From contig FOZF01000001.1 in assembly GCA_900113425.1 (NCBI GenBank), positions 166,884 to 230,883 of the forward strand: 64,000 nucleotides of DNA. The letters run 5' to 3'. The translations under genes and the position numbers were made by a program. Positions within the stretch are counted from its first letter, which is position 1; each line of letters opens with the position of its first letter. Of this stretch, positions 7,381 through 21,949 are shown piece after piece. The notes under the pieces were generated by a model. That model saw nothing but the letters and a program-made list of their open reading frames with translations, was not told the DNA's origin and searched no databases. The DNA is from Stenotrophomonas maltophilia. Its GTDB lineage: Bacteria; Pseudomonadota; Gammaproteobacteria; Xanthomonadales; Xanthomonadaceae.

Positions 7381-8439
7381 ATGACTACCGATACCTCCCG
7401 CCTGTCCTTCCTGGACCGGTATCTCACGCTCTGGATCTTCGCCGCCATGGCGCTCGGCGTCGGCCTGGGCGCGCTGTTCGAGGGCGTGCCCAGCGCGTTG
7501 AACAGCCTTTCCGTAGGGTCGACCAACATTCCGATCGCGATCGGCTTGATCCTGATGATGTATCCGCCGCTGGCCAAGGTGAAGTACGAGGAACTGCCCA
7601 CGGTCTTTGCCGACAAGCGCGTCCTGATGCTCTCGCTGCTACTGAACTGGATCGTGGGCCCGTTCCTGATGTTCGGCCTGGCGGTGCTGTTCCTGCGCGA
7701 CTACCCCGAGTACATGACCGGCCTGATCCTGATCGGCTTGGCGCGCTGCATCGCCATGGTGCTGGTGTGGAACCAGCTCGCCCGCGGTGACGGCCAGTAC
7801 GTGGCCGGCTTGGTCGCATTCAACTCGATCTTCCAGATCGCGCTGTTCAGCGTCTACGCGTGGCTCTTCCTTTCTTGGTTGCCGCCGCTGTTCGGCCTGC
7901 AGGGCAGCGTCATCGATGTCAGTGTCTGGACCATCGCAGAGGCGGTTCTGATCTACCTCGGCATCCCGTTCTTGGCCGGCTTCCTCACCAGTCGGTGGCT
8001 GAAGGCGCGCAGGGGCGCGCAGTGGTATGAAGAGACGTTTCTGCCTGCCATCAGTCCGATAACGCTCGCCGCACTTCTGTTCACCATCGTGGCGATGTTC
8101 AGCCTCAAAGGCGGTGACGTGCTGCGGATTCCGATGGACGCGGTGCGCATCGCGATCCCGCTGACACTGTACTTCATCATCCAGTTCGTCATCAGCTTCT
8201 TCATGGGAAAGCTGATCGCCAAGGATTATCCGCGCATCACTGCGATCGCGTTCACCGCGGCAGGCAACAATTTCGAACTGGCCATCGCGGTGGCTATCGC
8301 GGCTTTCGGCCTGGCCTCGCCGGTCGCCTTCGCCGCCGTCATCGGCCCGCTGGTGGAAGTGCCGGTACTGATCCTGCTGGTGCATGTGGCCTTGCGGCTG
8401 GGCAAGCGTTACTTTCCTGCCGGTGCACGGAGCCGCTGA
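7381..8439 (+). CDS. acr3: Arsenite efflux permease Acr3
   Basis: This 352-residue inner-membrane protein with about ten membrane segments is an Acr3-family arsenite antiporter. The conserved cysteine is Cys123 in [20 protein letters not shown], and the conserved glutamate lies in [15 protein letters not shown]. It exports arsenite, the product of ArsC, from the cytoplasm. The gene follows the broken arsC by 18 bases and is probably transcribed from the arsR promoter. Length and motifs are typical, and nothing suggests damage. Confidence 0.95.
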
Positions 8440-8627
8440 GCCATGAGCACCACCCGACACATTCCATTGCTGATCCTACGCTCCGGCCCGGCCGGCTGGG
8501 CCGCGCCACCGACGCGCCTGGGTGTGGCGGCGCCAAAGAGCGTAGATGGACAGTGTCGACATGGCGGTGCGCGGGGGCCTCGTGCCTGCCGGTTCCAGCG
8601 TAGACCGGGTTTCGAGCCTCGCACCGT

Positions 8628-8649
8628 CCGCCACCTTTATCGGTGGCGG
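8628..8649 (+). promoter_or_regulatory. Perfect stem-loop in the leader of the next gene
   Basis: CCGCCACC and GGTGGCGG form a perfect 8-bp stem with a TTTATC loop, 28 bases before the ATG at 8678. There is no T-run. The position suggests a leader structure acting on translation or mRNA stability rather than a terminator. The surrounding 8440-8677 has no convincing gene, although a short frame starts at 8443 just after acr3. Confidence 0.4.
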
Positions 8650-8677
8650 CTTCCGTTTATCTGTTCGGAGCCCTGCC

Positions 8678-9085
8678 ATGACCAACGCCTACCCCCCTTC
8701 TCCGCAGCCGATCCGCCTGCATCCCGCCAACGAGCCCACACCGGATCCCAACGCCTTCGTTTCACTGCTGCACAGCATCGGCGCAGGTGCCGCGTCCAAC
8801 GGCCGGCCCTGGCCGGAGGGTCATCTGCCGCAAGGGCGACGCATGGCGCTGTCAGACGCCGACTGTTCTCTCAACGGCCTGCGCGTGGTGATGGAAATTC
8901 TGCTTGCCGCAGAGCGCCCCGGCGGCATGGAGAGCGTGACCAGTATGTCGGCAACCGTGTGCTGGAGCGGCCGCCCAGACCGGCAGGCGGCACCCATTAA
9001 TGTGACGCGTCACGCCCAACCACGCACCGTTAACAGCCGCGCACTATCCTCGAAGCCCCTGAACCTTCACGAGGCGAGTCCATGA
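8678..9085 (+). CDS. Hypothetical protein
   Basis: This 135-residue frame starts TNAYPPSPQPIRLHPANEP and includes ALSDADCSLNGLRVVMEILL, a plausible amphipathic helix. No signal peptide, membrane segment or known motif is visible. The last 30 residues are low in complexity and may not be conserved. The ATG lies 28 bases after a perfect leader hairpin. The stop overlaps the next start as ATGA, which could mean coupling or chance. I do not recognise the family. A longer frame in another phase covers the same DNA but has an arginine-rich, shadow-like composition. Confidence 0.4.
   Translation: MTNAYPPSPQPIRLHPANEPTPDPNAFVSLLHSIGAGAASNGRPWPEGHLPQGRRMALSDADCSLNGLRVVMEILLAAERPGGMESVTSMSATVCWSGRPDRQAAPINVTRHAQPRTVNSRALSSKPLNLHEASP
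9002..9013. promoter_or_regulatory. 12-bp palindrome upstream of a secreted protein gene
   Basis: GTGACGCGTCAC is a perfect palindrome 68 bases before the ATG at 9082. A close relative, GTGACGCATCAC, occurs at 2129-2140, and both are followed by GCC. It may be a protein-binding site, but two copies are weak evidence. Confidence 0.25.
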
Positions 9086-9360
9086 CCAAGCTCCACACCG
9101 TGCTGATTACCGGCTGCCTGCTGGCCCTGAGCCCGCTGGCCTCGGCCGAAACCGTGAACCTGACCAACAGCGCCGACGGCGCCAACCGCGATGCCGGCAT
9201 TGCTGCGGTCAAGAAGAAGCTGCAGGACGCCTGCACCGATCGCAAGGGCTCGCCGGATGCCGACTCGTTCGAGGTGGTCTTCGAGAAGACCAGCGACAAC
9301 CCCAGCGTACCCAAGCCGTACTACGTGGACGGCAAGATGAAGTGCGAGCTGCCGGGTTGA
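9082..9360 (+). CDS. Small periplasmic protein of unknown function
   Basis: This 92-residue protein has a clear signal peptide (TKLHTVLITGCLLALSPLAS, cleaved near ASA-ET). A short mature part of about 70 residues follows, rich in lysine and aspartate, with two cysteines (DACTDRKG and KMKCELPG) that could form a disulfide. It should be secreted to the periplasm. GAGGCGAG before the ATG supports the start. I do not recognise the family. It is convergent with the protease gene on the other strand. Confidence 0.7.
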   Translation: MTKLHTVLITGCLLALSPLASAETVNLTNSADGANRDAGIAAVKKKLQDACTDRKGSPDADSFEVVFEKTSDNPSVPKPYYVDGKMKCELPG

Positions 9361-9372
9361 ACCCGGCGGTCG

Positions 9373-10191
9373 CTATCGACCGGCGCCCTCCCCGGACATG
9401 ACGCGGTCGATCCAGCCGGCGTAGCGTGAGATGCGCACGTTGAACACCACTTGGCCATAGAAGCCGGCCTCAAGGGCGTGCTCGGGAACGGCGGTGATCC
9501 AGGAGCCCAGGCCGACCAGCTGCCAGTGGCCCTGCGCGTTGATGAGCAGCGGGCCACCGCTGTCGCCGTTGCCCAGAACGCCTTCAAGCGGCAGGGCGCG
9601 CGGCGGCGGATCGAACCGGTACCAGAGATAGCGGTCGTTGCCGCCGGTGATGGCGTTGTACGCCCGCCGCAGGGCGGTGCGATGCGACCCGCCGGGGATG
9701 AACCCCTCGGCGCCATTCCCGGTGGCGCCCTTCCCTATCAAGGTGGCCACCTGCGCAACCTCGCCCGCGCCCCGATAAAGCACGACGGGCTCGACATCGG
9801 CGACGGGCGTGGCCAGCCGGATCAACGCGATGTCATCCGACGCCGCCAGGAACGCGTGGATCTTCGCGGCACTGCCTGTTGCCAGGGCCTCTTCGCCCAG
9901 CGCGGCCGGCATCGGCCTGAAACCGGGGTGCAGATACACGCGCTCGACGGCGTAGTTGCGCCCACCGACGGCGACCTCGGCGCCCATGCCGTCCATCGGT
10001 GCGGCGTGCGCGGCGGTGACCACCCAGCGTGGGGCGATCAGTACGCCGTGCCCCTCTCCCGGCAGGTCGGCCAGTGCCGGGAAGGCAGACCCATCGATGC
10101 GGTACCGGGCATCATCCACGTCGTCACGGATGACGATGGCCCCGGCCGCAAATGGGACCGTCAAAAGCATCAGGAAGAGCCAACGTTTCAT
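9373..10191 (-). CDS. Trypsin-like serine protease, exported
   Basis: This protein belongs to the chymotrypsin/trypsin fold (peptidase family S1). The catalytic triad is visible: His62 in WVVTAAHAAP, Asp120 in SDDIALIRL and Ser211 in GNGDSGGPLL. A signal peptide (KRWLFLMLLTVPFAAGA) sends it out of the cytoplasm. I chose the ATG at 10191 because the hydrophobic signal core follows directly. A start at 10224 would add 11 residues. At 272 residues it is close to the size of a bare catalytic domain with a short tail. The substrate cannot be read from the sequence. Confidence 0.85.
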   Translation of the reverse strand: MKRWLFLMLLTVPFAAGAIVIRDDVDDARYRIDGSAFPALADLPGEGHGVLIAPRWVVTAAHAAPMDGMGAEVAVGGRNYAVERVYLHPGFRPMPAALGEEALATGSAAKIHAFLAASDDIALIRLATPVADVEPVVLYRGAGEVAQVATLIGKGATGNGAEGFIPGGSHRTALRRAYNAITGGNDRYLWYRFDPPPRALPLEGVLGNGDSGGPLLINAQGHWQLVGLGSWITAVPEHALEAGFYGQVVFNVRISRYAGWIDRVMSGEGAGR

Positions 10192-10341
10192 GTATTTCTG
10201 CATCCCCGTGTTCAAGTAGCCCACGCTAGCCGAAATGCACCTGCCTGGTGAGCGGCATGCGACCAGACCCCGCGCCGGCCGACAAAGGCCGGCAAACCGG
10301 GCGCGGAATCAGGGCTGCGCTGGCCTTCCCAGGGATTCGAT

Positions 10342-11991
10342 CTACGCCCCGCCCAGCTCAACCACGCGGTCGGCGTCGGTGACGACACTGCGCCGGTGGG
10401 TGATGGCCAGCACGGTCACCTCGCTGGCCAGCGCCCGGATATGCCCCATGATCTCGCGTTCGGTCGCCTCGTCCAGGGCGGAGCTCGCTTCGTCCAGCAA
10501 GAGGATCGCGGGCTCGCCATACAGTGCGCGTGCGATGGCGATGCGCTGCCGCTCACCGCCGGAGAGCTTCAGGCCACGCTCGCCAACCGTGGTCTCGAAG
10601 CGCTCGGGCAGTGCCTCGATCAAGGTAAGGATGGCAGCCTTGCGTGCGGCATGCCGCAGTCGCTCGTCATCGCGCGGGCGCCCCAGCAGGATGTTGTCGG
10701 CCAGGCTCTCGTTGAGCAGGATCACGTCCTGCGGAACGACGGCGACGGCCGCGTGCCACGTCGCGCGATCGATCCGGGCCAGGTCGGTACCGTCCACCCG
10801 TATCCGGCCGTGCTGGGGCTCGATGGATTTCAGCGCCAGCTTGAACAGTGTCGACTTGCCGGTACCGGTCTCTCCCATCAGGAAGGTGATGCCGCCGCGT
10901 CCGGCGTGGAAGGTCGCATCGGTTACACCGCGGCCGTTGTCGTAGCGGTGGCTCACTCCGTCGAACTGGAGCAGGCCACTGCGGGCGGAGAACCGTTCGG
11001 CATGGGCCACCTGCGGTTCCTCGGGCGCAGCCCACAGGGCAGAGAGCGGCGCCAGCATGCTCCACGAACGGGCGACATCATCGATGGAGCGCGCGATCAT
11101 CTCCAGCGGCAGATTGAGCTGGAGCAGCAGCAGATTGAACAGGACGATGTCGCCCACGCTCAGCTGCCCGTTCTGGTAGCGCGGCAGCAGCAGGGTGAAG
11201 GTGACGATGAACTCGATGGCCAGGCCGATGCCCAGCAGGGCAATGAAGCTTACGCGCTGCAGCACGTAGGCACGCCAGCTGTCGCGCACCCTCTGCGCCT
11301 TCTGCTCGAAGCGCTGCACCATCCAGCCGCTGCCGCCGAACTGCCTGAGCGTTTCCATGGCATTCATGGCATTGCCGACGAAGCGGGCGTTCTGCTGGCC
11401 GGCCTCGACGGCCGCTTCGCGGTGGATGCGTGCACGTCGGGTAGCGAGGGCGGAAAGCGCGACGGCCACCGTGCCGTAGCCCAGAACGATGGCCACGATC
11501 TGCAGGTTGATCAGCGCCCCCAGGGTGACCAGGGTCAACACGATCTGCAGGGCACTGGGAATGAAGGCCACCAGGCCCAACTGCACGACGATCTTGAGCG
11601 CCCCCCGCCCCTTTTCGCCGGCCACCTGCAGTTCCGCTGCGTTGTACTCCACGAAGAAACTGTTGGTCTTCTTCAGCAGGCGCGCGAAGTAGCGGGTACT
11701 GGTGATGAAGCCCAGATTCTCGCCGCTGAGGAATGACAGGTACTGCACCGTGTTCTGCAGCACGCTGCCCACCCCGAGCAGCACCGCGTAGAGAACGAAC
11801 CACCCGGCCAGGACCGCTGCGCCCTGCCCGGGAAGGCGGTCGATCAATCGCGAGAACAGATAGGGCGCGGCAACGGTGGCCAGGCTGGAGAGCAGCACGG
11901 TGGCGGCAATGAGCAGCAGCAGCGTGCGATCGGCTTTCCAGTAGGCCGTCAGTATCTCGCTGACAGGCGCGGGCACAGCGAACGGCTTCAT
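10342..11991 (-). CDS. ABC exporter of the lasso-peptide cluster (D-type)
   Basis: This 549-residue protein fuses a six-helix exporter domain (residues about 20-310) to an ATPase domain (about 335-549). The ATPase carries the Walker A motif GETGTGKST, the signature LSGGERQRIA, the Walker B AILLLDEASSALDE and the switch histidine in ITHRR. Its form fits the D proteins that export lasso peptides and give self-immunity. It is divergent from the TonB receptor gene, and their shared 117-base promoter region contains the same AT-rich dyad found beside the precursor gene. The general ABC exporter assignment is firm; the link to the lasso peptide is inferred from context. Confidence 0.85.
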   Translation of the reverse strand: MKPFAVPAPVSEILTAYWKADRTLLLLIAATVLLSSLATVAAPYLFSRLIDRLPGQGAAVLAGWFVLYAVLLGVGSVLQNTVQYLSFLSGENLGFITSTRYFARLLKKTNSFFVEYNAAELQVAGEKGRGALKIVVQLGLVAFIPSALQIVLTLVTLGALINLQIVAIVLGYGTVAVALSALATRRARIHREAAVEAGQQNARFVGNAMNAMETLRQFGGSGWMVQRFEQKAQRVRDSWRAYVLQRVSFIALLGIGLAIEFIVTFTLLLPRYQNGQLSVGDIVLFNLLLLQLNLPLEMIARSIDDVARSWSMLAPLSALWAAPEEPQVAHAERFSARSGLLQFDGVSHRYDNGRGVTDATFHAGRGGITFLMGETGTGKSTLFKLALKSIEPQHGRIRVDGTDLARIDRATWHAAVAVVPQDVILLNESLADNILLGRPRDDERLRHAARKAAILTLIEALPERFETTVGERGLKLSGGERQRIAIARALYGEPAILLLDEASSALDEATEREIMGHIRALASEVTVLAITHRRSVVTDADRVVELGGA

Positions 11992-12045
11992 CACTCTCGG
12001 TCCCCGGCGTCTCGGCGGTTCACAGGGCAAGGCAATCCCTGTGCG

Positions 12046-12067
12046 GCTAAATGATATGATATAACAT
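12046..12067. promoter_or_regulatory. Lasso-cluster regulatory dyad, copy 1
   Basis: ATGATA, five bases, then TAACAT form an imperfect dyad (5 of 6 arms match), preceded by GCTAA. It lies between the divergent exporter and TonB receptor genes. The same core, GATATAACAT preceded by GCTAAATG, recurs at 20936-20957 beside the precursor gene. TATAAC within it could be a -10 element for the TonB receptor, with no good -35, which would suit an activator-dependent promoter. Confidence 0.6.
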
Positions 12068-12108
12068 CGCCACCAGGCGCACGTGACCGTGCCGCAGGCC
12101 GATATCGG

Positions 12109-14493
12109 ATGAGAGTGATGGACCGGGGAATGGAACAGGTATTCATGGGCGGTAGGCGCGCGTTGCTGGCGGCGAGCATCGCTGCCGCGCTGCAGATCGG
12201 AGCGCAGGCCCAGGCGCAGAACGCGGGCACCGCCGATGACGCGCCCACGGCCACCCTGGACAAGGTGCTGGTCATTGGCAGCAACATCCGCGATGCCGTC
12301 GGCGGTGGTGCATCGCCGGTCATCGTGATCGACCGGGAGGCCATCGACCGCACCGGCGTGGCCTCCCTGCAGCAGCTGTTCGAGAAGCTGCCGCAGAATT
12401 TCGGTGGCGGCGCCAATGGTGCCAATGTGGCCAATCTCGGTGTTGACCGTGATACCGGCAACAACTTCGGCCTGGGCACCGCGATCAACCTGCGCGGGCT
12501 GGGTACGGGCACGACGTTGACCCTGGTCAACGGCCATCGCGTGACCTCATCGAACCGCTACCAGTATGTCGATGTATCGCTGATTCCTCTCAGCGCGGTC
12601 GAACGCGTGGAGATCCTCACCGATGGTGCCTCTGCCATCTACGGCACCGATGCAGTCGGTGGCGTCGTCAACATCATCCTGCGCCAGGACTTCACCGGCT
12701 ACGAGTCGTCGCTGCGGTACGGCACGGTCACCACCGGCAACATGGACGAGTACCAGGTGTCGCAGTCCGCGGGGTGGTCGTGGGACCGCGGCCGTGTGCT
12801 GGCAAGTTACGAGTTCCTGAAGCAGGGTAACCTGCCCGCCACCGACAAGGATTTCTCCCGGAACGTCACGGTCAGGCCCTACGATCTCTATCCGGGATCG
12901 AAGCGGCACAGCCTGTACGTCGATGGCGTGCAGGAGCTCAGCGATGTGCTGACGCTGAATCTCACCGGCTCGTTCGCCAAGCGCGAGATGGACACCACCA
13001 TCTCCGGCACGGCTGACGAAACCCGGTTGTTCCCGCACACGCAGCAGTTCGATGTGTTCGCAGGCCTGACCCTGGAGCTTCCGCGCCAGTGGCAGGCGCG
13101 CCTGGACGCTGGATTCGGCAGGAACGAGGTCTCCTACGAGCGCACGACCATCACCGGCAGCACGGTCAGCACGGCGCCGCCGACGGATACGAACTCCGAA
13201 TCGCGCTACCTGGACCTGGTGGCCGACGGCGAGGTGTTCAGCCTGCCCGCCGGCCCGGTACGCGCAGCGGTCGGCGCCGGCTACCGCCGCGATGGCTATG
13301 AGCTGCTCGATCACCGTGGGCTGGAAAAGCCGCTCGATCTGCAGCGCACGATCAGGTCCGCCTTTGCCGAGCTCAACATCCCGCTGCTCAAGGACATGCC
13401 CGGCGTTCGCAGCCTGTCGCTGACCACAGCGGCACGCTACGACGACTACAGCGACTTCGGCTCCACCCTGAATCCCAAGCTGGGGCTGCTGTGGGAGGCT
13501 GCCGAAGGACTCTCGTTCCGTACCAGCTATGGCCGCTCCTACCGCGCGCCGGTCTACCAGGACATGCAGCTGAACAACACCGTGGTCGTGGCGAACGTGC
13601 CAAACCCGAACGCGGCCAACGGCAGAACCGTCCTGATGATGCTCTCCAACGGCAATCCCGATCTCGGCCCTGAGCGTGCCAAAACCTGGACCGGCGGGTT
13701 CTCGTTCGCACCGCCCACCATTCCCGGCCTCACGGTCGATGCCAACTACTATCACATCGACTATGCGGACCGGATCGGCAGCGGCTTCGGCGGCAGCTTC
13801 CCGTCCCTGTTCCTGCAGTCCACGGCGCCCTACGCGGACATCCTGACCGTCGATCCATCGCAGCAGCAGATCCAGCAGGCGCGCCAGCTGGGCGTGTCGG
13901 GCCTGGGGCTGTTCGTCTCACGTGTGGGGCCGTATGCACTCCCTGCCGGCCTGGACGAGACCAGCAGCCAGGTGATCCTGGACAACCGCTTCCGCAACAA
14001 CGCCTTCACCTCGCAGCGCGGCGTCGATCTCAACGCGTCCTATCGCGTCGATGTGGGCCAGACGCGGATCGCGATGAACCTGGCCGGGCAATACATCCTC
14101 GAATCGACGCGGCGCGTGACCAGCACATCGCCCGAGCTGGACGCGGTCAACGCGGTGTACTACCCGGTCGATCTCAAGCTGCGCGGCGGCCTGACCCTGG
14201 ACCGGGGCCAGGCCGCAGGCGGCGTCTTCGTGAACTACGTGGACAGCTACCGCGATCCGGCCAACATCGCCCACCCGCACGTCAGCTCCTGGACGACCGT
14301 CGACCTGAACCTCAAGTACCACTTCGGCGCCCCGGCCGGCGACCACGAAGGCACGTCGCTCGCCTTCAACGTGCAGAATCTTCTCGACCGGGATCCGCCC
14401 TTCATCATCAACAGCATCAACACCGGCTACGACCCCACCAATGCGACCGCGCTGGGGCGCTTCCTGTCGGTGACCCTCACGCATCGCTGGTAA
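12109..14493 (+). CDS. TonB-dependent outer-membrane receptor
   Basis: This 794-residue outer-membrane protein has a signal peptide (RRALLAASIAAALQIGAQAQ), a TonB-box-like segment (TLDKVLVIGSNI), a plug domain (about residues 65-190, with INLRGLGTGTTLTLVNGHR and DGASAIYGTDAVGGVVNIIL) and a C-terminal beta-barrel. It ends in an aromatic outer-membrane signature (TLTHRW). It takes up a ligand with energy from TonB. The ATG at 12145, just before the signal core, has a better ribosome-binding site than that at 12109. Five bases separate it from the ABC-2 permease gene, so the four genes 12109-18037 form an operon. The ligand may be the lasso peptide, or a compound the peptide mimics. Confidence 0.9.
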   Translation: MRVMDRGMEQVFMGGRRALLAASIAAALQIGAQAQAQNAGTADDAPTATLDKVLVIGSNIRDAVGGGASPVIVIDREAIDRTGVASLQQLFEKLPQNFGGGANGANVANLGVDRDTGNNFGLGTAINLRGLGTGTTLTLVNGHRVTSSNRYQYVDVSLIPLSAVERVEILTDGASAIYGTDAVGGVVNIILRQDFTGYESSLRYGTVTTGNMDEYQVSQSAGWSWDRGRVLASYEFLKQGNLPATDKDFSRNVTVRPYDLYPGSKRHSLYVDGVQELSDVLTLNLTGSFAKREMDTTISGTADETRLFPHTQQFDVFAGLTLELPRQWQARLDAGFGRNEVSYERTTITGSTVSTAPPTDTNSESRYLDLVADGEVFSLPAGPVRAAVGAGYRRDGYELLDHRGLEKPLDLQRTIRSAFAELNIPLLKDMPGVRSLSLTTAARYDDYSDFGSTLNPKLGLLWEAAEGLSFRTSYGRSYRAPVYQDMQLNNTVVVANVPNPNAANGRTVLMMLSNGNPDLGPERAKTWTGGFSFAPPTIPGLTVDANYYHIDYADRIGSGFGGSFPSLFLQSTAPYADILTVDPSQQQIQQARQLGVSGLGLFVSRVGPYALPAGLDETSSQVILDNRFRNNAFTSQRGVDLNASYRVDVGQTRIAMNLAGQYILESTRRVTSTSPELDAVNAVYYPVDLKLRGGLTLDRGQAAGGVFVNYVDSYRDPANIAHPHVSSWTTVDLNLKYHFGAPAGDHEGTSLAFNVQNLLDRDPPFIINSINTGYDPTNATALGRFLSVTLTHRW

Positions 14494-14498
14494 GCCGG

Positions 14499-15962
14499 AT
14501 GAGCGCGCCCTCCCCCGCCCGCGTCCGGCCTGCGTCGACGCTTCGGCAAGCTGCCGGTGTCGCGGCAACCCAGCTGACCCTGATGTGGCGCGAGCGGCGC
14601 CTGCCGTGGCTCGCCCTGGTCCTGCTGCTGCTTGCGGGCGCATCCGTTGCCACGGGTGCCGCGCGCCTGTCCCTGCAGGCGCAGGAGCGCCAGGCCGTAG
14701 CGGCGGAGGAAGCGCGGCTGTGGGACAGCCAGGGCGTGATCGATCCCCATGCCGCGGCGCATGTGGGGCGCGCCATTCCCGCGCCGGTGCGGCCCCTGGC
14801 TGCACTCGATCCGGGACTGACGGATGTGCTGGGCACCTCGGTGTTCATCGAGGGCCACGCACAGAACCCGGCCAGGCATCGCGCGATGGACGCGGGTACC
14901 GCCCTCAGCCGGTTCGATGGCTTCTCCGCCGCCTGGGCCCTGCAGGTGGTAGCGCCGCTGCTCATCATCCTTGCCGGCTTCGCCACGCTGTCCGGTGACG
15001 TCGCCCGCGAAACCCTCCGCCAGGAACTCGGCACCGGGGCTTCGCCGGCGGTGCTGATCATCGGCCGATTGATCGCCCTGGCAAGCGCTTCCCTGCTGCT
15101 GGTGCTTGCCATGCTGGCGGCGACGATTCCCGCTGTGGCGGGACAGAACGCCGGCTGGATGGACATCGCCGCGCTGCTGGCCATGTGCGCGGCCTACGGA
15201 CTCTATCTGCTGGTGTTCTGTGCCCTCACGGTCGGTGTGTCGGCGTTGTCCAGCTCGGCGCGGACCTCGCTGGTGGTGCTGCTGGGGTTCTGGGTGGTAG
15301 CCACCGTGCTGGTGCCACGAATGGCGCCGGCGGTGGCGGAATCGCTGGATCCCACGCCCACTGCGCCGGCGTTCAGGGCTGCCGTGACCGAAGAGGCGGA
15401 GAACGGCGTGGATGGCCATGACCCTGCGGACAAGCGGTTGGATGCCCTGCGACACGCGCTGATGGCGCGCTACCAGGTCGACACGGTGGAAGACCTTCCC
15501 GTCAACTTCCGGGGCGTGGCCCTGGAGTTTGCGGAGAAGAATTCGACGGACACCTACAACCGCCATTTCGAGCGGATCCATGCGACCTACCGGCAGCAGG
15601 AAGCAACACAGCGCGCATTCGCCTTTGTTTCTCCGGCCATCGCGCTGCAGTCATGGTCACGCGCATTCGCCCGCACCGATTTCGCGGCGCACCTGGCCTT
15701 CCTGCGGAGCGTGGAAGACTACCGCTACCGCTTGATCCAGGCACTCAACGCGGAAGTGAAGCAGCACAAGGCGCCGCAGGGGGAAAAACATCGTGCCGAC
15801 ATCGCGACCCTCACCCGGTCCGTAGCGTACACGCCGGGGCAGCAGCACCTGGCCGGCATTGCCGCGGCGCAGGCGGTGAACCTGGCCATCCTGCTGGCCT
15901 GGGTGCTGCTGGCGCTTGGACTGGTGCTTTTCTCGGCCCGGCGCCTGGGGACGACCCCATGA
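14499..15962 (+). CDS. ABC-2 permease with DUF3526, first subunit
   Basis: This 487-residue inner-membrane protein has an N-terminal helix (LPWLALVLLLLAGASVATG), a large periplasmic segment (about residues 60-145), a cluster of membrane helices (145-275), a second soluble segment (280-440) and a last helix. This layout is typical of DUF3526 ABC-2 permeases. It overlaps the next permease gene by ATGA. With that protein and the ATPase it should form one exporter. It lies in the operon headed by the TonB receptor and may export the lasso peptide or protect the producer. Function is inferred from context. Confidence 0.8.
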   Translation: MSAPSPARVRPASTLRQAAGVAATQLTLMWRERRLPWLALVLLLLAGASVATGAARLSLQAQERQAVAAEEARLWDSQGVIDPHAAAHVGRAIPAPVRPLAALDPGLTDVLGTSVFIEGHAQNPARHRAMDAGTALSRFDGFSAAWALQVVAPLLIILAGFATLSGDVARETLRQELGTGASPAVLIIGRLIALASASLLLVLAMLAATIPAVAGQNAGWMDIAALLAMCAAYGLYLLVFCALTVGVSALSSSARTSLVVLLGFWVVATVLVPRMAPAVAESLDPTPTAPAFRAAVTEEAENGVDGHDPADKRLDALRHALMARYQVDTVEDLPVNFRGVALEFAEKNSTDTYNRHFERIHATYRQQEATQRAFAFVSPAIALQSWSRAFARTDFAAHLAFLRSVEDYRYRLIQALNAEVKQHKAPQGEKHRADIATLTRSVAYTPGQQHLAGIAAAQAVNLAILLAWVLLALGLVLFSARRLGTTP

Positions 15963-17317
15963 GCAGTCTTTCGGTTGCCGGCCATGAGGTGCGCAGGCTG
16001 CTGCGCGATCGGGCGCTGCCCACCCTGCTGGCGCTGCTGCTGGCGCTGGCCGCCTACGCCGCATGGAATGGCAGGGCCTGGGTCGAACAGCGTGACGCCG
16101 CCATCAGCGTGATCCAGCTCGAAGAGCAGCACACCCATGACCGCAGCCGGGTGTTTGTCGGCAAGGCGCCATCGGTATTGCCGCGCGTCCAACCCGTACT
16201 GCCGCCCGCTGCGATGGCGTCGGTGTCGATCGGGCAGGCGGAGGCCTATCCCTATACCGCCGATGTGGTGGCGCTGGGCGATCGCACCCAGCTTTTCAGG
16301 AACGTGTGGGCCGACATCGGCAATCCGGCAGCGCGGGCCGCAGGCCGGTTCGACCTGGCGTTCGTCATTGTCTTTCTGCTGCCCTTGGTCATCCTCGCAG
16401 CCAGCTATGACCTCTGGTCCCGCGAGCGCGAGCGTGGCATCGCTGCGCTGGTGCTGTCGCAGCCGGTCGCGGTGGGACGGCTGATCGCAGTGAAAGCGCT
16501 GGCCCGGGGCGGCGTGGTACTGCTGCCTGCGGGAGTGATCCTGGTCGGCGCGGCGGCGTGGTCCGGTGCGGAGAGCCTTGCCGGCCTCGGCCTGCTGTCG
16601 CTGGTCATCCTCGCCTATGGCGGCTTCTGGCTGGCGGTGGCGGTACTGATCGGCTGTTTCGCCCGGCGCACCACGGAGGCGGCCATTGCGGCCGGCGGAG
16701 TGTGGTTGCTGATCGTGGTGATGGCCCCGTCATTGACCCTCGCCGCAGTGAATCTGGCCGTTCCGCCGCCGTCACAGATGCAGCTCGCGACCGACGTGAA
16801 GGCGCGGCTGGCCGCAACGGCCGCGCAACAGGCACTCCATCGCCGCAGTGCTTCAACGGCGGTGCGTTCGCCGCCACCGGTGATTCCGGACCACGTGCGC
16901 GACGCCTATGCCGACCTGCTGGCGACCGACCTCGACCTTGCGCCGCTGGTCGAATCGCATGAGCGGGCGCAGGATGCACGCCGTCGGGTGCTGGACAAGG
17001 TGCGGTTGCTGCTGCCCGCGGTCGCAGTGCAGGACGCGCTGGATCGCATCGCCGGCACGGACGCGGATCGCGCGCTCGCCTTCCAGCACCAGGTCCATGC
17101 GTTCTGGCAGGCCCGTCGATTGCTGCACAAGGCGTACCTGGATCGCGACGCGCCGCAGACACTCGCGGAATATGAAGCCCTGCCCCGCTTCCGCTTCGTG
17201 GAGACGGCGGGCGTTGGCCCGCGCGGAGTGCCTGCCGATATCGCGGCGTTGCTCGCCGCCACCCTGATTTTGCTGATCGCCGCCGGATCGATGCGTCACC
17301 GGCTGGCGGCCCCCTGA
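15959..17317 (+). CDS. ABC-2 permease with DUF3526, second subunit
   Basis: This 452-residue protein repeats the layout of its upstream neighbour: an N-terminal helix, a periplasmic loop, a block of membrane helices (residues about 130-275, including VIVFLLPLVILAASYDLWSR and the soluble motif ERERGIAALVLSQP), a soluble segment and a C-terminal helix. The motif 'DLWSRERERG' is the cytoplasmic coupling helix seen in ABC-2 permeases. The start overlaps the upstream stop (ATGA), so translation is coupled. Two similar permeases and one ATPase probably make a heterodimeric ABC-2 transporter. Confidence 0.8.
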   Translation: MSSLSVAGHEVRRLLRDRALPTLLALLLALAAYAAWNGRAWVEQRDAAISVIQLEEQHTHDRSRVFVGKAPSVLPRVQPVLPPAAMASVSIGQAEAYPYTADVVALGDRTQLFRNVWADIGNPAARAAGRFDLAFVIVFLLPLVILAASYDLWSRERERGIAALVLSQPVAVGRLIAVKALARGGVVLLPAGVILVGAAAWSGAESLAGLGLLSLVILAYGGFWLAVAVLIGCFARRTTEAAIAAGGVWLLIVVMAPSLTLAAVNLAVPPPSQMQLATDVKARLAATAAQQALHRRSASTAVRSPPPVIPDHVRDAYADLLATDLDLAPLVESHERAQDARRRVLDKVRLLLPAVAVQDALDRIAGTDADRALAFQHQVHAFWQARRLLHKAYLDRDAPQTLAEYEALPRFRFVETAGVGPRGVPADIAALLAATLILLIAAGSMRHRLAAP

Positions 17318-17326
17318 GGACTCCAC

Positions 17327-18037
17327 ATGCTTTCTGCAAAGAACCTCGTCAAGGAACACGGCACCCACCGGGCACTCGACGACGTCAGCTTCGAGGTAGG
17401 GCCGGGCGAGATCTTCTGCCTGCTCGGGGCCAACGGTGCGGGAAAGTCGACCACGATCAAGCTCTTTCTGGGCTTCCTCACCCCCACCTCCGGATCCGCG
17501 GAGGTCGATGGACTCAGCGCGCACCGGCAGCCGCAGGAGGTGCGACGCAGGCTGCTGTACATCCCCGAGACCGTGGCGTTGTACGACGAACTGTCCGGTC
17601 TTGAGAACCTGGACTACTTCGCGCGCCTGGCCGGTGTGGACGACCGCTCACCCGCCCGGCTGCGGGATGCACTGAGTACAGCGGGCTTGGCGCCGGACGT
17701 CTTCGGACGACGCGTGGGCCTGTACTCCAAGGGCATGCGGCAGAAGGTCGGCATTGCCCTGGCCATCGTCAAGGACGCCAAGGCGCTGCTGCTTGACGAG
17801 CCGACGTCCGGCCTCGATCCCACCGCGTCGGCCGAGTTCCATGACCTGATCGTGCGACAGCGTGATCGTGGCACCGCCATTCTGATGGCCACGCACGATC
17901 TGTTCCGCGCCCGCGAGGTCGCCACCACGATCGGCCTCATGCAGGCCGGGCGGTTGCGCAGGACGTTGGATGCCACCACCATCACCGCCAACGACCTTGA
18001 GAGCCTGTACCTCGAGGAGATGAGCCGGAGCGCCTAG
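17327..18037 (+). CDS. ABC transporter ATPase subunit (ABC-2 type)
   Basis: This 236-residue cytoplasmic ATPase has Walker A GANGAGKST, the Q-loop region YIPETVALYDELSG, the signature YSKGMRQKVGIA, Walker B ALLLDEPTSGLD and the switch histidine in MATHDLF. It lies nine bases after the second permease gene and must energise that transporter. It is the last gene of the TonB-receptor operon. It is convergent with the lasso cyclase gene: the two stop codons share the palindrome CTAG and overlap by four bases, so no room is left for a terminator between the operons. Confidence 0.9.
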   Translation: MLSAKNLVKEHGTHRALDDVSFEVGPGEIFCLLGANGAGKSTTIKLFLGFLTPTSGSAEVDGLSAHRQPQEVRRRLLYIPETVALYDELSGLENLDYFARLAGVDDRSPARLRDALSTAGLAPDVFGRRVGLYSKGMRQKVGIALAIVKDAKALLLDEPTSGLDPTASAEFHDLIVRQRDRGTAILMATHDLFRAREVATTIGLMQAGRLRRTLDATTITANDLESLYLEEMSRSA

Positions 18038-19875
18038 GCGACTCCGGCCCCCTGCGCTGCTGGCCGCCCTTCCCAGCGCCTGAGCCACGCTTCGATGTTG
18101 ACCTGCGGGCCGAAGATGCCGAGCACCTGCGATGAATGATCCGGGCTGACCCGACGGATGCCGGCGTCGGCCGAGGCACTGTCGATGTACCCACGCCGGG
18201 CCAGCAGGCCATCGACAAGCAGGCTGCGGATGAACGCCTGATGGCCCTGGGTGACCGCGACCGAATGATCGTCGAGGTAGGACTTCACTTTCCGCGACAG
18301 CAGCGCATCCGGCAGCAGCCCCTGCAAGGCACGCCGTGCAATCGTCCGGTCCTCCGCATCCGCCATGAGCAGGCGCAGCGGCATGCGCGCGAACAGTTCG
18401 ACGAGCGGTTGTGCGCTGATCGGAGAGACACCGTGCCAGCCACCCGCGCCCTCGAACGGGTCAAGAACGCTGGTCGGAAACACCATCCGGCTGATGTGGG
18501 CCAGTTTGTACGGTGACACCTCGTGCCCTTCGTTGCGCGCATGGCGCAGCCAGGCCGGTGGCGTGACGTCCTGCTCGGACACGTCAACCTTCACCCATTC
18601 GCAGGGGTTGCCCCAGCGACCGTTGATGCTGGCGGGCCGCCTGAGCAGCCCATGGATCACAGCATCCTTGAGGACGCCATAAAGCGAATCGCCCGCCTGC
18701 GCGGTTTCAAAGGCGACCCGGAAGAAGTGGCGGTCGATGCCGCGCCGCCAGGCATGGTCGATCGCCGCAGCGTTGCCCTTGAAGCGCAGGAAGACCGCGT
18801 CGCCGCCGACACCGGTGAACTGCACGGTGTCGCCATCAAAGGCGACATCACGGCGATGCAGGAGGTAGCCCGAGCAATGTGCGGGCCGCGCCGTCCGCGG
18901 GAAGGTCATGATCTCTTCCAGCGCGCAGTGGGGCTGCCGCCGGTACTCGACGAACCCGCAGCGCCGGCCCGACGACTCACGTGCACCGGCCACCGCCATG
19001 CGGGCAAACATCCGCTCATCGGCACCGATGCCGTCGTCATAGTGGTGGACACAGTCCACTTCCGGCATGGAGGGCGCGTGCAGCAGGCCGGCGAGGATGA
19101 TGGAGGAATCCAGCCCGCCCGACAGCTGCAGCTGGATACGCCGGTGCCGGCTGGCCAGGGCGCCGATGCAGCCCAGCAGCGTGGAGCGCGCAAGCTGCAC
19201 CGCCTCCTGCAGGTCTTCGATCGGTTCGTCGCGGGCCAGGCGCACGATGTCCCACTGGCACTGCCGGCTGACCGGCTCGCCATCGCGGATGGAAACGGCC
19301 TCCCCGGCCTCGATGGCGGTGACCTCCCTGAAGCCGGTCTGCAACCCGTCACGGAACGGGAACAGCAGCGAGTACGACAGGAAGGACCAGTCGATGCTGA
19401 AGTCGCGCAGGCGCAGTGCAAGGCAGTCTTCCATGCTGGAGAAGACCACCGTCAGTTGATCCGCCGTCGTGATGTAGCAGGGAATTTCGGCCGTGGGATC
19501 ACGCAGGACGAACCAGCTCGATGACTGTGGCTGGTAGCCGAACGCGACATAGCGGCCCCAGCAGTGCTGCACGAGGGTCTTCCCCTGCGTGCGGCAGGCC
19601 GCATCGGCGGCGGCCGCATCCAGTGTCGCGCGCCCGGGCACGGTGTCCCTGCCGAAATTCCTGTCGAACAGAGCGCCGAGCACGACCAGCGAGCCGCAGC
19701 GGCTGCAGTCCAGATAGCCAGGGTTGTCACTCTGGACATAGATCGCAGCGCCGTGGTCATTCATCACGCAGGTGATGCCGGCGTGCATGGCCTCGATGCG
19801 TTGCATGGCGTGCCGGGCCTGCGTGGATGCGGAGTCGCAGGAGGCGTTCCAGAGCACGGCGATGTATCGATACAT
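18034..19875 (-). CDS. Lasso-peptide macrolactam synthetase (C protein)
   Basis: This 613-residue protein is an asparagine-synthetase-B homologue. A glutamine-amidotransferase-like domain fills residues about 1-200, but the catalytic Cys2 is replaced by Tyr (MYRYIAV). Then comes the ATP-pyrophosphatase domain with the PP-loop LQLSGGLDSSIIL (SGGLDSS at 252-258). Lasso cyclases activate the side chain of an Asp or Glu of the core as an adenylate and close it on the N-terminal amine. It starts 13 bases after the B gene and is the last gene of the A-B-C operon. The D and K residues around DRTIARRALQGLLPD and SRKVKSYLDDHS are family-like. Its neighbours make the lasso assignment strong. Confidence 0.9.
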   Translation of the reverse strand: MYRYIAVLWNASCDSASTQARHAMQRIEAMHAGITCVMNDHGAAIYVQSDNPGYLDCSRCGSLVVLGALFDRNFGRDTVPGRATLDAAAADAACRTQGKTLVQHCWGRYVAFGYQPQSSSWFVLRDPTAEIPCYITTADQLTVVFSSMEDCLALRLRDFSIDWSFLSYSLLFPFRDGLQTGFREVTAIEAGEAVSIRDGEPVSRQCQWDIVRLARDEPIEDLQEAVQLARSTLLGCIGALASRHRRIQLQLSGGLDSSIILAGLLHAPSMPEVDCVHHYDDGIGADERMFARMAVAGARESSGRRCGFVEYRRQPHCALEEIMTFPRTARPAHCSGYLLHRRDVAFDGDTVQFTGVGGDAVFLRFKGNAAAIDHAWRRGIDRHFFRVAFETAQAGDSLYGVLKDAVIHGLLRRPASINGRWGNPCEWVKVDVSEQDVTPPAWLRHARNEGHEVSPYKLAHISRMVFPTSVLDPFEGAGGWHGVSPISAQPLVELFARMPLRLLMADAEDRTIARRALQGLLPDALLSRKVKSYLDDHSVAVTQGHQAFIRSLLVDGLLARRGYIDSASADAGIRRVSPDHSSQVLGIFGPQVNIEAWLRRWEGRPAAQGAGVA

Positions 19876-19888
19876 GCGTGAGGCGTCT

Positions 19889-20590
19889 CTACAGCACCAG
19901 GATGGGAACCATCCGGCGCAGGTTGAAGGGGATGTCGGTCAGGACCTGATCGCCGTGCTGCAGCCAGCAGTGCGCCGCAAAGGGCCGCGTCCTGACCGCG
20001 AACACCCAGTCCGCGACGATTCCATGCCTGGACAGGAATTCGCGCATCGCCAGGCAGTACAGGAAGCACTCGTCCGTCTTCCTGAAGGCCAACGGCCGCA
20101 GCCAGTCGAACACCCGGACGCGCATGGCCAGTTCCTGCACGCTTGCGTCCCTGCGCTGTGATGCCTGCGCACGCCTGCGCGCCGAGGACACCGTGTAGCT
20201 GAAAGGAAGGAGCGTCCTGCTGCATCCTGCACGCATGCACGCGGCCATGAATCTGCGGACGTCACGTGCGGTGATGCGGGGACAACCGCGGGATTCACCT
20301 TCGCGTATCCAGTGGCGCGGCAGTGCGATCGACGCGCTGGCCGCGGCTTTGCCTCGCCGCGGATCATCGGTGATCAGCCCGCGCTGCAGCAGCGACCGCA
20401 GCAGATCCGGCGTCTGCCGGCCGTCTGCCGGCAACGGCCAGTCCAGTACCAGCCCGCCCAGGCCGGCTGCATGATCGCGGTCGAGGGCCAGGTATTTTCC
20501 CGTCGCCTGGTCCAGGATCACCATGGCATCACCGGTGACACAGACATGTGCCTGCTTGGACAGGAAATAGCGCGCCGCAGGCTGTCCCAT
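19889..20590 (-). CDS. Lasso-peptide leader peptidase fused to RRE (B protein)
   Basis: This 233-residue protein joins two domains. Residues about 1-85 form a PqqD-like RiPP recognition element (HVCVTGDAMVILDQATGKYL), which binds the leader. Residues about 105-233 form a transglutaminase-like cysteine peptidase that cuts the leader off. The triad is visible: Cys175 in DECFLYCLAMREFL, His207 in FAAHCWLQ and Asp219 in LTDIPFNLR. A fused B protein is the rule in proteobacterial lasso clusters, while Firmicutes and actinobacteria usually split it. It lies between the precursor and cyclase genes, after a strong intergenic hairpin. Confidence 0.92.
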   Translation of the reverse strand: MGQPAARYFLSKQAHVCVTGDAMVILDQATGKYLALDRDHAAGLGGLVLDWPLPADGRQTPDLLRSLLQRGLITDDPRRGKAAASASIALPRHWIREGESRGCPRITARDVRRFMAACMRAGCSRTLLPFSYTVSSARRRAQASQRRDASVQELAMRVRVFDWLRPLAFRKTDECFLYCLAMREFLSRHGIVADWVFAVRTRPFAAHCWLQHGDQVLTDIPFNLRRMVPILVL

Positions 20591-20619
20591 TAGGTGATCT
20601 CTTCAGTCCAGGCGGAGAA

Positions 20620-20646
20620 GCGGTGCATGCGCAGGGCATGCACCGC
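20620..20646 (-). promoter_or_regulatory. Strong hairpin between lasso precursor and B gene
   Basis: GCGGTGCATGC and GCATGCACCGC form a perfect 11-bp stem with a five-base loop in the 78-base gap after the precursor gene. No T-run follows on the minus strand, so it is unlikely to be a full terminator. Hairpins in this place in other lasso clusters allow more precursor mRNA than enzyme mRNA, by stabilising or partly ending the transcript; the same role is inferred here. Confidence 0.65.
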
Positions 20647-20668
20647 AGGTCATGCATGACGCAGTGGA

Positions 20669-20830
20669 TCAGGGCGAGGTGGTCGGGAACACGCCATCCC
20701 ACAAGGTGCCGTGGTTGTGCGCCTTGGTTTCCGAGACCACCGAGCCCAGCTCGATCAGATCACCGCCCACACCCTGGTCTTCAGGGTTCTGCTGTCCTGC
20801 CACTACACCCAGCTCAATCAGCTCGTTCAT
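20669..20830 (-). CDS. Lasso-peptide precursor (A peptide)
   Basis: This 53-residue peptide has a good ribosome-binding site (AGGAG, eight bases before ATG) and lies directly upstream of the B and C genes. The leader ends GDLIELGSVVSETK, with threonine at position -2 (Thr35), as B peptidases require and as in astexin-type leaders (LxxLGxxxxET). The predicted core is AHNHGTLWDGVFPTTSP (17 residues, Ala37-Pro53). Asp9 of the core is the only acidic residue, so the ring should be a nine-residue macrolactam from Ala1 to Asp9. The tail GVFPTTSP would thread through it, with Phe12 or Pro13 as possible plugs. Ala1 cores are known from caulonodin-type peptides. The motif LIELG occurs twice in the leader (residues 4-8 and 25-29). 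Confidence 0.88.
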   Translation of the reverse strand: MNELIELGVVAGQQNPEDQGVGGDLIELGSVVSETKAHNHGTLWDGVFPTTSP

Positions 20831-20935
20831 GAACATCTCCTCTTGTCAGTGGATGTATCCGGGCGTCGTGCCACGGATACGGAGCAGCCAAGCCACCATC
20901 GCTGCGCGTGTTGCAGAGCGATTGCCGTCAAGGCA

Positions 20936-20957
20936 GCTAAATGTTACGATATAACAT
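20936..20957. promoter_or_regulatory. Lasso-cluster regulatory dyad, copy 2
   Basis: ATGTTACGATATAACAT (20941-20957) is a perfect dyad of six-base arms around five bases, preceded by GCTAA. It lies in the divergent region between the precursor gene (minus) and the ParB-like gene (plus). Copy 1 at 12046-12067 differs in only two positions of this core. A dedicated regulator is not encoded in the cluster. Confidence 0.65.
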
Positions 20958-21022: not shown

Positions 21023-21949
21023 ATGAGCGACCCGATCAGTGACGATGGCCTTGATCCCACCCTTCTGCTCAAAGGACCCTTCCCGCTGCCGAGGTTCATC
21101 CGCTTCATCAGGGAGCGATGCCCACCAGGACACTTCGATGAGGCGGTGCTGGTGGAGGAATGGAAGAGCGCCCGCGCCGACGCGCTGCGCCAGCTGAAGG
21201 AAGAGGCCAACGACGCCGACGCCGTCGAGGTGCAGGCGCTTCCCGCGGAGATGGCGGCGCTGGCCGACCACGCGCCCCGCCAGCCTTCGATGCACCGCAT
21301 GACCAACAACGTGCCGCGCGCATGGCAGATGGTCGAGATCGACCGGCTGGTGGTCTTCCAGGAGTGCATCAATCTGCGCCATGTCGACCAGCTTGCCGCC
21401 GCCTTCCCCGCCTCACCCACGGCACAGGACATCATGGAGCTGGTTGCACGCAGCGGGCGCCACGCTCACCCGCCGGTCCGCGCTTCCCGGTCCGAGGGCA
21501 GCTACACCTTCGCGTCCAGCTCCAACGACCTGCGCTTCCTGGACGTGGCGACGATCGACCCGGCCGCCATCTCCGGCTACGAACCCTTCGGTGCAGCCAG
21601 CCACGCACTGGTCATCTATCTGGGTTTCAGCGACAACCTCGTCAGTGCCACCCGGATCGGCAACCGCCTCATCCTGACCAACGGCTCCCATCGCCTGTAC
21701 CTGCTGCGCAGGCTTGGACTCCGCCATGTGCCGTGCCTGCTGACCGACGCCTCCGACGGCGACTTCAGTGACGTGCTGCTGCCAGCGGCCGTCAAGCAGG
21801 ACCGTGCGTTCTATCTGGCCTCGGCACGGCCGCCGTTGTTCAGGGACTACTTCGATCCACGCCTGACCCGCATCGTGCCGGTGACCCGCAAGAACTACGC
21901 GCTGCGGGCCACGCTGGATCTGCAACGGATCACGGTACCGGCGGTGTAA
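21023..21949 (+). CDS. ParB-like-domain protein of the lasso cluster, unknown role
   Basis: This 308-residue cytoplasmic protein has no signal peptide. Residues about 200-250 contain ATRIGNRLILTNGSHRLYLL, then RRLGLRHVPCLL. This resembles the phosphate-binding 'GxHRxxAxxxxGxxxVP' box of the ParB/sulfiredoxin fold. The N-terminus (DPTLLLKGPFPLPRFIRFI) and the middle are unfamiliar. I chose the ATG at 21023, which follows GGGAAAATGG. It is divergent from the precursor gene across the shared regulatory dyad, so it is probably co-expressed with the lasso genes. It could be a regulator, a tailoring enzyme or an immunity factor. Classical B, C and D functions are already present elsewhere. Confidence 0.6.
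   Translation: MSDPISDDGLDPTLLLKGPFPLPRFIRFIRERCPPGHFDEAVLVEEWKSARADALRQLKEEANDADAVEVQALPAEMAALADHAPRQPSMHRMTNNVPRAWQMVEIDRLVVFQECINLRHVDQLAAAFPASPTAQDIMELVARSGRHAHPPVRASRSEGSYTFASSSNDLRFLDVATIDPAAISGYEPFGAASHALVIYLGFSDNLVSATRIGNRLILTNGSHRLYLLRRLGLRHVPCLLTDASDGDFSDVLLPAAVKQDRAFYLASARPPLFRDYFDPRLTRIVPVTRKNYALRATLDLQRITVPAV

Follow-up and report, generated by a model that had tools for sequence, protein, structure and literature searches.

A conserved, predicted lasso-peptide gene cluster of Stenotrophomonas with predicted Zur boxes, read as a candidate zincophore system

Described lasso-peptide and zinc-regulon systems compared with the locus

Most lasso peptides of Proteobacteria have, to our knowledge, no known natural job. 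Among the described families, those of benenodin and subterisin offer the closest comparison with the locus presented here, and their clusters usually have a TonB receptor close by. The locus lies in the window, i.e. the whole stretch of 64,000 nucleotides that was analysed; its precursor resembles those of benenodin and subterisin in the leader motif beside the cut, in the threonine at position -2 and in the neighbouring B and C genes, while its core, with Ala1 and a His-X-His ring, and its predicted zinc control are unlike theirs. Also unlike in the benenodin/subterisin clusters, an isopeptidase-like hydrolase was not named in the scans of its nine genes. StcA of S. acidaminiphila, likewise a predicted lasso precursor of this genus, has a similar leader end, but differs in its described core (GILQGNEPMGGEPVPGISEE), which holds no His and has a predicted seven-residue ring as in xanthomonins (PMC4675943). 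Membership of the window's precursor in the benenodin/subterisin families was considered and rejected: it scores 17.4 bits against NF033522 (cut-off 33 bits) and 17.5 bits against PF24178 (cut-off 27 bits).

Pseudopaline, coelibactin and ethylenediamine-disuccinate are not lasso peptides and are made by other chemistry. Their clusters are described as being under Zur control, as is predicted here, and pseudopaline also has a Zur-controlled TonB receptor (PMC6103462). The thiooxazole metallophores of MNIO enzymes, described from Pseudomonadota, are likewise ribosomal peptides predicted as metallophores, but other enzymes and another chemistry are involved, and no lasso (PMC13097082); a further account presents a lasso peptide and an opine zincophore as separate clusters (PMC11196684).

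In C. crescentus, gel shifts and reporter assays have been used to test Zur sites (GATGTTATATCATAACAAT, AATGTTACTTTATAACACG); the strongest derepression in the zur mutant is described for the TonB receptor znuK and for an ABC-2 ATPase with two permeases, znuGHI (PMC4176598). The boxes of the window have the form of these Caulobacter operators, and the lasso cluster likewise has a TonB receptor, an ABC-2 ATPase and two permeases, this being a likeness of architecture by description; the Caulobacter account of znuK/znuGHI mentions no genes for peptide biosynthesis, and "lasso" is absent from its main text (PMC4176598).

Three things appear to be new here: the link to the zinc regulon, the conserved system of nine genes and the repeat within the leader. 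A literature search, which was not exhaustive and leaves absence from print unproven, returned no Zur-regulated or zinc-binding lasso peptide among the matches listed, and the core AHNHGTLWDGVFPTTSP, which the first-pass annotation did not recognise among known lasso peptides, was also absent from a literature text search. Automatic annotation already names several relatives of the B protein and one relative of the precursor ("Benenodin family"), and the cluster is therefore detectable by standard mining. The first-pass annotation missed the wider cluster of nine conserved genes, with its boxes of the zinc-regulon type, its DUF3526/TonB transport genes and its partner of predicted ParB/sulfiredoxin fold, as well as the repeat in the leader.

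The precursor, its leader and the biosynthetic proteins

Gene A, the putative lasso precursor gene, is located on the minus strand at 20669..20830 and has 53 codons before the stop; with a start at the in-frame ATG at 20836, it would have 55. The product (53 aa) reads as the leader MNELIELGVVAGQQNPEDQGVGGDLIELGSVVSETK, followed by the likely core (codons 20672-20722), the sole acidic residue of which is Asp9, with two histidines and a single tryptophan within the predicted ring. The first-pass annotation had proposed this very frame, with a leader that ends in SETK, with Thr at -2 and with a core that starts at Ala1 and has Asp9 as its lone acidic residue: the frame is present, the leader and the core are as described, and the neighbouring genes, B (RRE/cysteine protease) and C (Asn-synthetase-like), pass the NCBIfam and Pfam cut-offs.

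A database search has returned 24 homologous proteins, every one at E <= 5.1e-6; the two with disrupted cores (P0016 and P0020) were left out, and the conservation counts refer to the remaining 22, which are intact. All 22 have an invariant Thr at -2, Ala1, His2, His4, Gly5 and TTSP tail, and core position 9 is always acidic (Asp in 21, Glu in 1), which backs the predicted cut after SETK and makes the predicted nine-residue ring, closed between Ala1 and Asp9, well supported by conservation. Across 14 Stenotrophomonas genomes, the 17 core codons have no amino-acid change and five of them vary by synonymous changes only, and the middle of the leader occurs in 7 forms; as read from the codons, these comparisons show the core to be under more constraint than the mid-leader. 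Since the gene has 24 homologues and a core with synonymous changes only, it is not a chance frame. The first-pass annotation had tied its claim to conservation of the frame wherever B and C are kept, and the frame is kept in 18 of 18 loci, these having been chosen by a strong B match. The features by which the lasso family is recognised are found together, i.e. a small gene A beside B and C, Thr at -2, a small residue at position 1 and an acidic residue within positions 7-9. Gene A is likely a lasso-peptide precursor, and from the family rules we infer a lasso product; the calculated [M+H]+ of the dehydrated core product is 1818.856.

The B protein (19889..20590, minus strand) consists of an RRE-like N-terminal domain and a transglutaminase-like cysteine protease (Cys175, His207, Asp219), as assigned by NCBIfam, alignment and predicted structure: it scores 66.7 bits against lasso_biosyn_B2 of NCBIfam (cut-off 33), Cys175 and His207 are invariant and Asp219 is nearly invariant in 38 aligned sequences, and the predicted structure (pLDDT 91) has the RRE protein TbiB1 as its best match (Foldseek probability 0.99, E 0.05). 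By sequence, the only match of B among solved structures is TfuB1 (E 0.82), and the closest named relatives of the protein are from Stenotrophomonas, the genus to which the genome is assigned on this basis. The C protein (18034..19875, minus strand), an Asn-synthetase-like cyclase with SGGLDSS, scores 59.5 bits against Asn_synthase of Pfam (cut-off 21) and has no match among solved structures by sequence at E 0.001. The D protein (10342..11991, minus strand), an ABC exporter with a fused ATPase domain, matches ABC exporters in general and no lasso-specific model.

The leader is composed of two units. The first unit (residues 1-23; 20762..20830, minus strand) appears in self-alignment as a decayed copy of the adjoining leader-plus-ring unit downstream, with a score of 34 against a shuffled mean of 15.1, and with 0 of 2000 shuffles as good; the second unit, DLIELGSVVSETK (20723..20761, minus strand), adjoins the core and is, by its conservation, the likely RRE-binding motif, with an amino-acid change in only 1 of its 13 codons across the 14 genomes. 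The repeat was tested by self-alignment in 23 of the 24 homologues (P0024, which could not be split, stands outside the test), with P <= 0.0015 in 14 and P of 0.006-0.039 in 5, and it is not significant in P0012, P0014, P0015 and P0023. In P0018 and P0021, the self-alignment scores are 62 and 61, against shuffled means of about 17, and the first unit is still legible as leader plus ring (KAHNHGDLRGD in P0018; KAPDCGALQD in P0021).

Two leader-plus-ring units per precursor, the first with a ring-like stretch, are seen in P0018, P0021 and P0022, which are possibly two-core lasso precursors, and single-unit precursors are P0024 (32 aa) and P0023. The simple view of the single-unit forms as ancestral was not upheld: the B protein that is tentatively paired with P0023 nests among the two-unit forms in a FastTree tree of 35 B proteins, a tree that has several nodes with low support and is compatible with either order of the two states.

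The nine-gene cluster and its predicted Zur boxes

The five other genes of the cluster are all located on the plus strand. They encode a TonB-dependent outer-membrane receptor (12109..14493) and the ATPase of an ABC-2 (znuG-type) module (17327..18037), both assigned by domain match and conserved cluster, two DUF3526 ABC-2 permeases (permease 1, 14499..15962, 90.4 bits against PF12040; permease 2, 15956..17317, 59.9 bits; cut-off 25) and an uncharacterised protein of 308 aa with a predicted ParB/sulfiredoxin fold, which is conserved with the cluster (21023..21949). The latter has no convincing relative among solved structures by sequence (best E 0.22), and SbnI, a protein of the ParB/sulfiredoxin fold, is among its fold matches. 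The nine genes, i.e. those of exporter D, the TonB receptor, the two DUF3526 permeases, the ATPase, C, B, A and the protein of ParB/sulfiredoxin fold, occur together in 18 of the 18 loci compared, which were picked by a strong B match and comprise 14 Stenotrophomonas loci and 4 outer loci (L045, L046, L047 and L026), with D having moved in the outer four; biosynthesis, exporter and TonB receptor, as looked for in a zincophore system, are thus found in one conserved cluster.

Among 91 genomes of the genus, B has a match in 18, of which 14 are of this type (at least 73% identity) and 4 are weak. At E <= 1e-20, B is rare in the wider samples (9 of 297 genomes at the family level, 2 of 369 at the class level); four Xanthomonas-side genomes have B, and the cluster context was looked at in the two other than G740 and G749. 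The weak matches (L015, L016, L017 and L018, in genomes G001, G002, G050 and G047) are probably other lasso clusters. In genome G009, where the cluster is absent, locus L149 holds part of the ParB-like gene at about 9832-10002, on one stretch with a homologue of the window gene at 9373-10224; this looks like the remnant of a cluster since lost. A plasmid origin was also considered and rejected, with no match to window positions 19889-20836 among 72,556 plasmid records.

Both divergent promoter regions of the cluster hold an inverted repeat, which we predict to be a Zur box: ATGTTACGATATAACAT is located between A and the ParB-like gene (20941..20957), and ATGATATGATATAACAT is located between D and the TonB-receptor gene (12051..12067), neither being assigned to a strand. 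The A/ParB-like box is exact to the palindrome TGTTAYNNNRTAACA in 18 of 18 loci, the surrounding DNA having diverged and the inner bases varying by lineage, and the D/TonB box has one mismatch to the palindrome in 13 and two mismatches in 1 of the 14 Stenotrophomonas genomes. At the TonB promoter of the outer loci, an exact box is found in L045, and an exact box together with another of 1 or 2 mismatches, 21 bp off, is found in L046, L047 and L026. Neither of the distant lasso loci, L027 and L028, has a box even when 2 mismatches are allowed, and an exact box is missing from the four short loci around the weak B matches in Stenotrophomonas. Three places in the window are within 3 mismatches of ATGTTAYRATATAACAT, against a mean of 0.02 matches in shuffles, and the third of them (39522) is probably a chance match. 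Promoter scans around both boxes have found no sigma-70-type promoter at either, which we count against the zincophore reading set out below.

In the genome of the window (G000, 4.14 Mb, with the window on its contig C8), the exact palindrome has 5 sites, and in five genomes it has 24, against 0 for the reversed control. Seven of the 24 sites are located in the lasso cluster, five in the region that separates the gene of a ZigA-like COG0523 GTPase from a MerC gene, four before one type of TonB receptor, one before another apparent TonB receptor (judged by eye) and three before ZrgA; outside the cluster, 13 of 17 exact sites therefore adjoin ZigA-like (5), ZrgA-like (3) or TonB-receptor (5) genes. 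An evident zinc gene is not found near 4 of the 24 exact sites, nor near L026:571, which counts against the zincophore reading; the sites in question are G000:C8:592998 (L136), G033:C147:24592 (L147), G226:C2:164517 (L138), G226:C31:262262 (L140) and L026:571. The genes of a ZnuD-like receptor and of a second MerC protein flank a copy of the box with two mismatches, and the weaker of the two FUR-family proteins that the genome encodes is Zur-like, its gene being located about 4 kb from the ZnuD-like gene. ZrgA (126.1 against 27.4), MerC and CobW pass their Pfam cut-offs; the best NCBIfam matches fall below theirs for ZigA (581.8 bits; cut-off 600), ZnuD (453.6; 950) and Zur (125.2; 167), and these scores, too, are counted against the zincophore reading. 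A Zur-type operator is common to the cluster and to likely zinc-regulon genes of the genome, some of these neighbours being named below NCBIfam cut-offs. Repression of the cluster by Zur is predicted because the boxes also adjoin the ZigA-like and ZrgA-like zinc genes, and it is from this shared operator that we strongly infer Zur control.

A MerC-family gene is located beside ZigA in five of five genomes, and the MerC-family genes L065:3948-4466 and L066:4079-4456 (contigs C6 and C5 of G000) share box-bearing promoters with ZnuD-like and ZigA-like genes; the two MerC-family proteins may be Zur-controlled zinc transporters.

The DUF3526 family (PF12040) is found in Caulobacter vibrioides alone among 14 control genomes, and in 21 of the 398 genomes of a phylum sample, three of them Stenotrophomonas. 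None of the other 18 DUF3526 loci matches B or C of the window at E <= 1e-4. Four of these 18 have an exact box (L100, L103, L110 and L111), and at the module promoter a box with at most 1 mismatch is present in five (the same four and L102), which speaks for the zincophore reading; the 13 modules with no box within 1 mismatch are counted against the zincophore reading, as is the fact that ABC-2 transporters usually export. One of the outside loci, L111 (genome G1194, 8437-18051), combines a DUF3526 module with a TonB receptor, a Zur-like FUR gene, a COG0523 GTPase and several boxes, and has no lasso genes.

Readings of the cluster

Given that all nine genes stay in one cluster, that the boxes, which also adjoin zinc genes, are conserved, that His2 and His4 are invariant and that the transport genes resemble znuK/znuGHI, we favour, with somewhat better than even confidence, a Zur-repressed nine-gene cluster that makes a secreted zinc-binding lasso peptide, i.e. 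a zincophore. Upon zinc depletion, Zur would leave the boxes; the RRE of B would bind the LIELG motif of the leader and the protease domain of B would cut after SETK, and C would link Ala1 to Asp9 with the tail trapped, so that the ring of the lasso would display His2 and His4. D would export the lasso peptide, the TonB receptor would recover it once it is loaded with zinc, and the znuGHI-type module of ATPase and DUF3526 permeases would serve the inner-membrane step. On our best reading, the His-X-His ring would bind zinc. Two His are an incomplete zinc site, a point that counts against the zincophore reading, and a further contribution would be needed, whether from a dimer, from the C-terminus or from a modified tail. 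The least certain part is the role of the protein of ParB/sulfiredoxin fold, for which we propose phosphorylation of the invariant Thr-Thr-Ser tail, because of the invariant TTSP tail and the predicted fold of this partner; paeninodin is reportedly a phosphorylated lasso peptide. The fullest form of the claim, in which this would be the first lasso-peptide metallophore, with a complete Zur-controlled system to make, export and recover it, possibly with an enzyme of ParB/sulfiredoxin fold that phosphorylates the tail and completes the zinc site, and with a leader that is the fossil of a second leader-plus-ring unit, falls a little short of even in our judgement.

Zinc control fits an antibiotic or a signal equally well, which is a further point against the zincophore reading. 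The main rival, which we consider unlikely, is an antibiotic induced by zinc starvation that would enter competitors via zinc-type TonB receptors, with the transporters of the cluster protecting the producer: the Zur boxes would suit competition for zinc just as well, microcin J25, a Gram-negative lasso antibiotic, is said to enter by a TonB-dependent receptor, and iron-regulated microcins use siderophore receptors. The core, however, is nearly invariant across genera, whereas antibiotics tend to diversify; a separate immunity gene was not recognised among the nine genes, and the cluster's own receptor and znuGHI-type module look like parts for uptake. The strong conservation of the core would also suit a signal of zinc status, sent to neighbours via the TonB receptor and with the protein of ParB/sulfiredoxin fold as its regulator, as would the fold match to SbnI, reportedly a regulator of a siderophore locus; this we hold to be improbable, given a cluster that is dominated by transport parts and a receptor in which the Pfam and NCBIfam scans named no signalling domain.

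The least probable of the readings is an ordinary lasso peptide with an incidental likeness to the zinc regulon; the boxes would then serve a different regulator, or would concern the TonB/ABC genes only. The leader does weakly resemble benenodin/subterisin leaders, and UniProt calls one homologue a "Benenodin family lasso peptide", but the leader scores under both curated cut-offs, and an exact box of its own is present at the A/ParB-like promoter in all 18 loci, such boxes being rare genome-wide.

For the favoured zincophore reading, the wider meaning is that a link to the zinc regulon would give one lasso family a specific role that is open to test. The metallophores would gain a ribosomal class that is mechanically locked, and a cargo would be suggested for the znuGHI-type DUF3526 transporters of zinc-starved bacteria. 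The cluster also places an uncharacterised protein of predicted ParB/sulfiredoxin fold within a biosynthetic setting, and its precursor suggests how a leader may arise from a duplicated leader-plus-ring unit.
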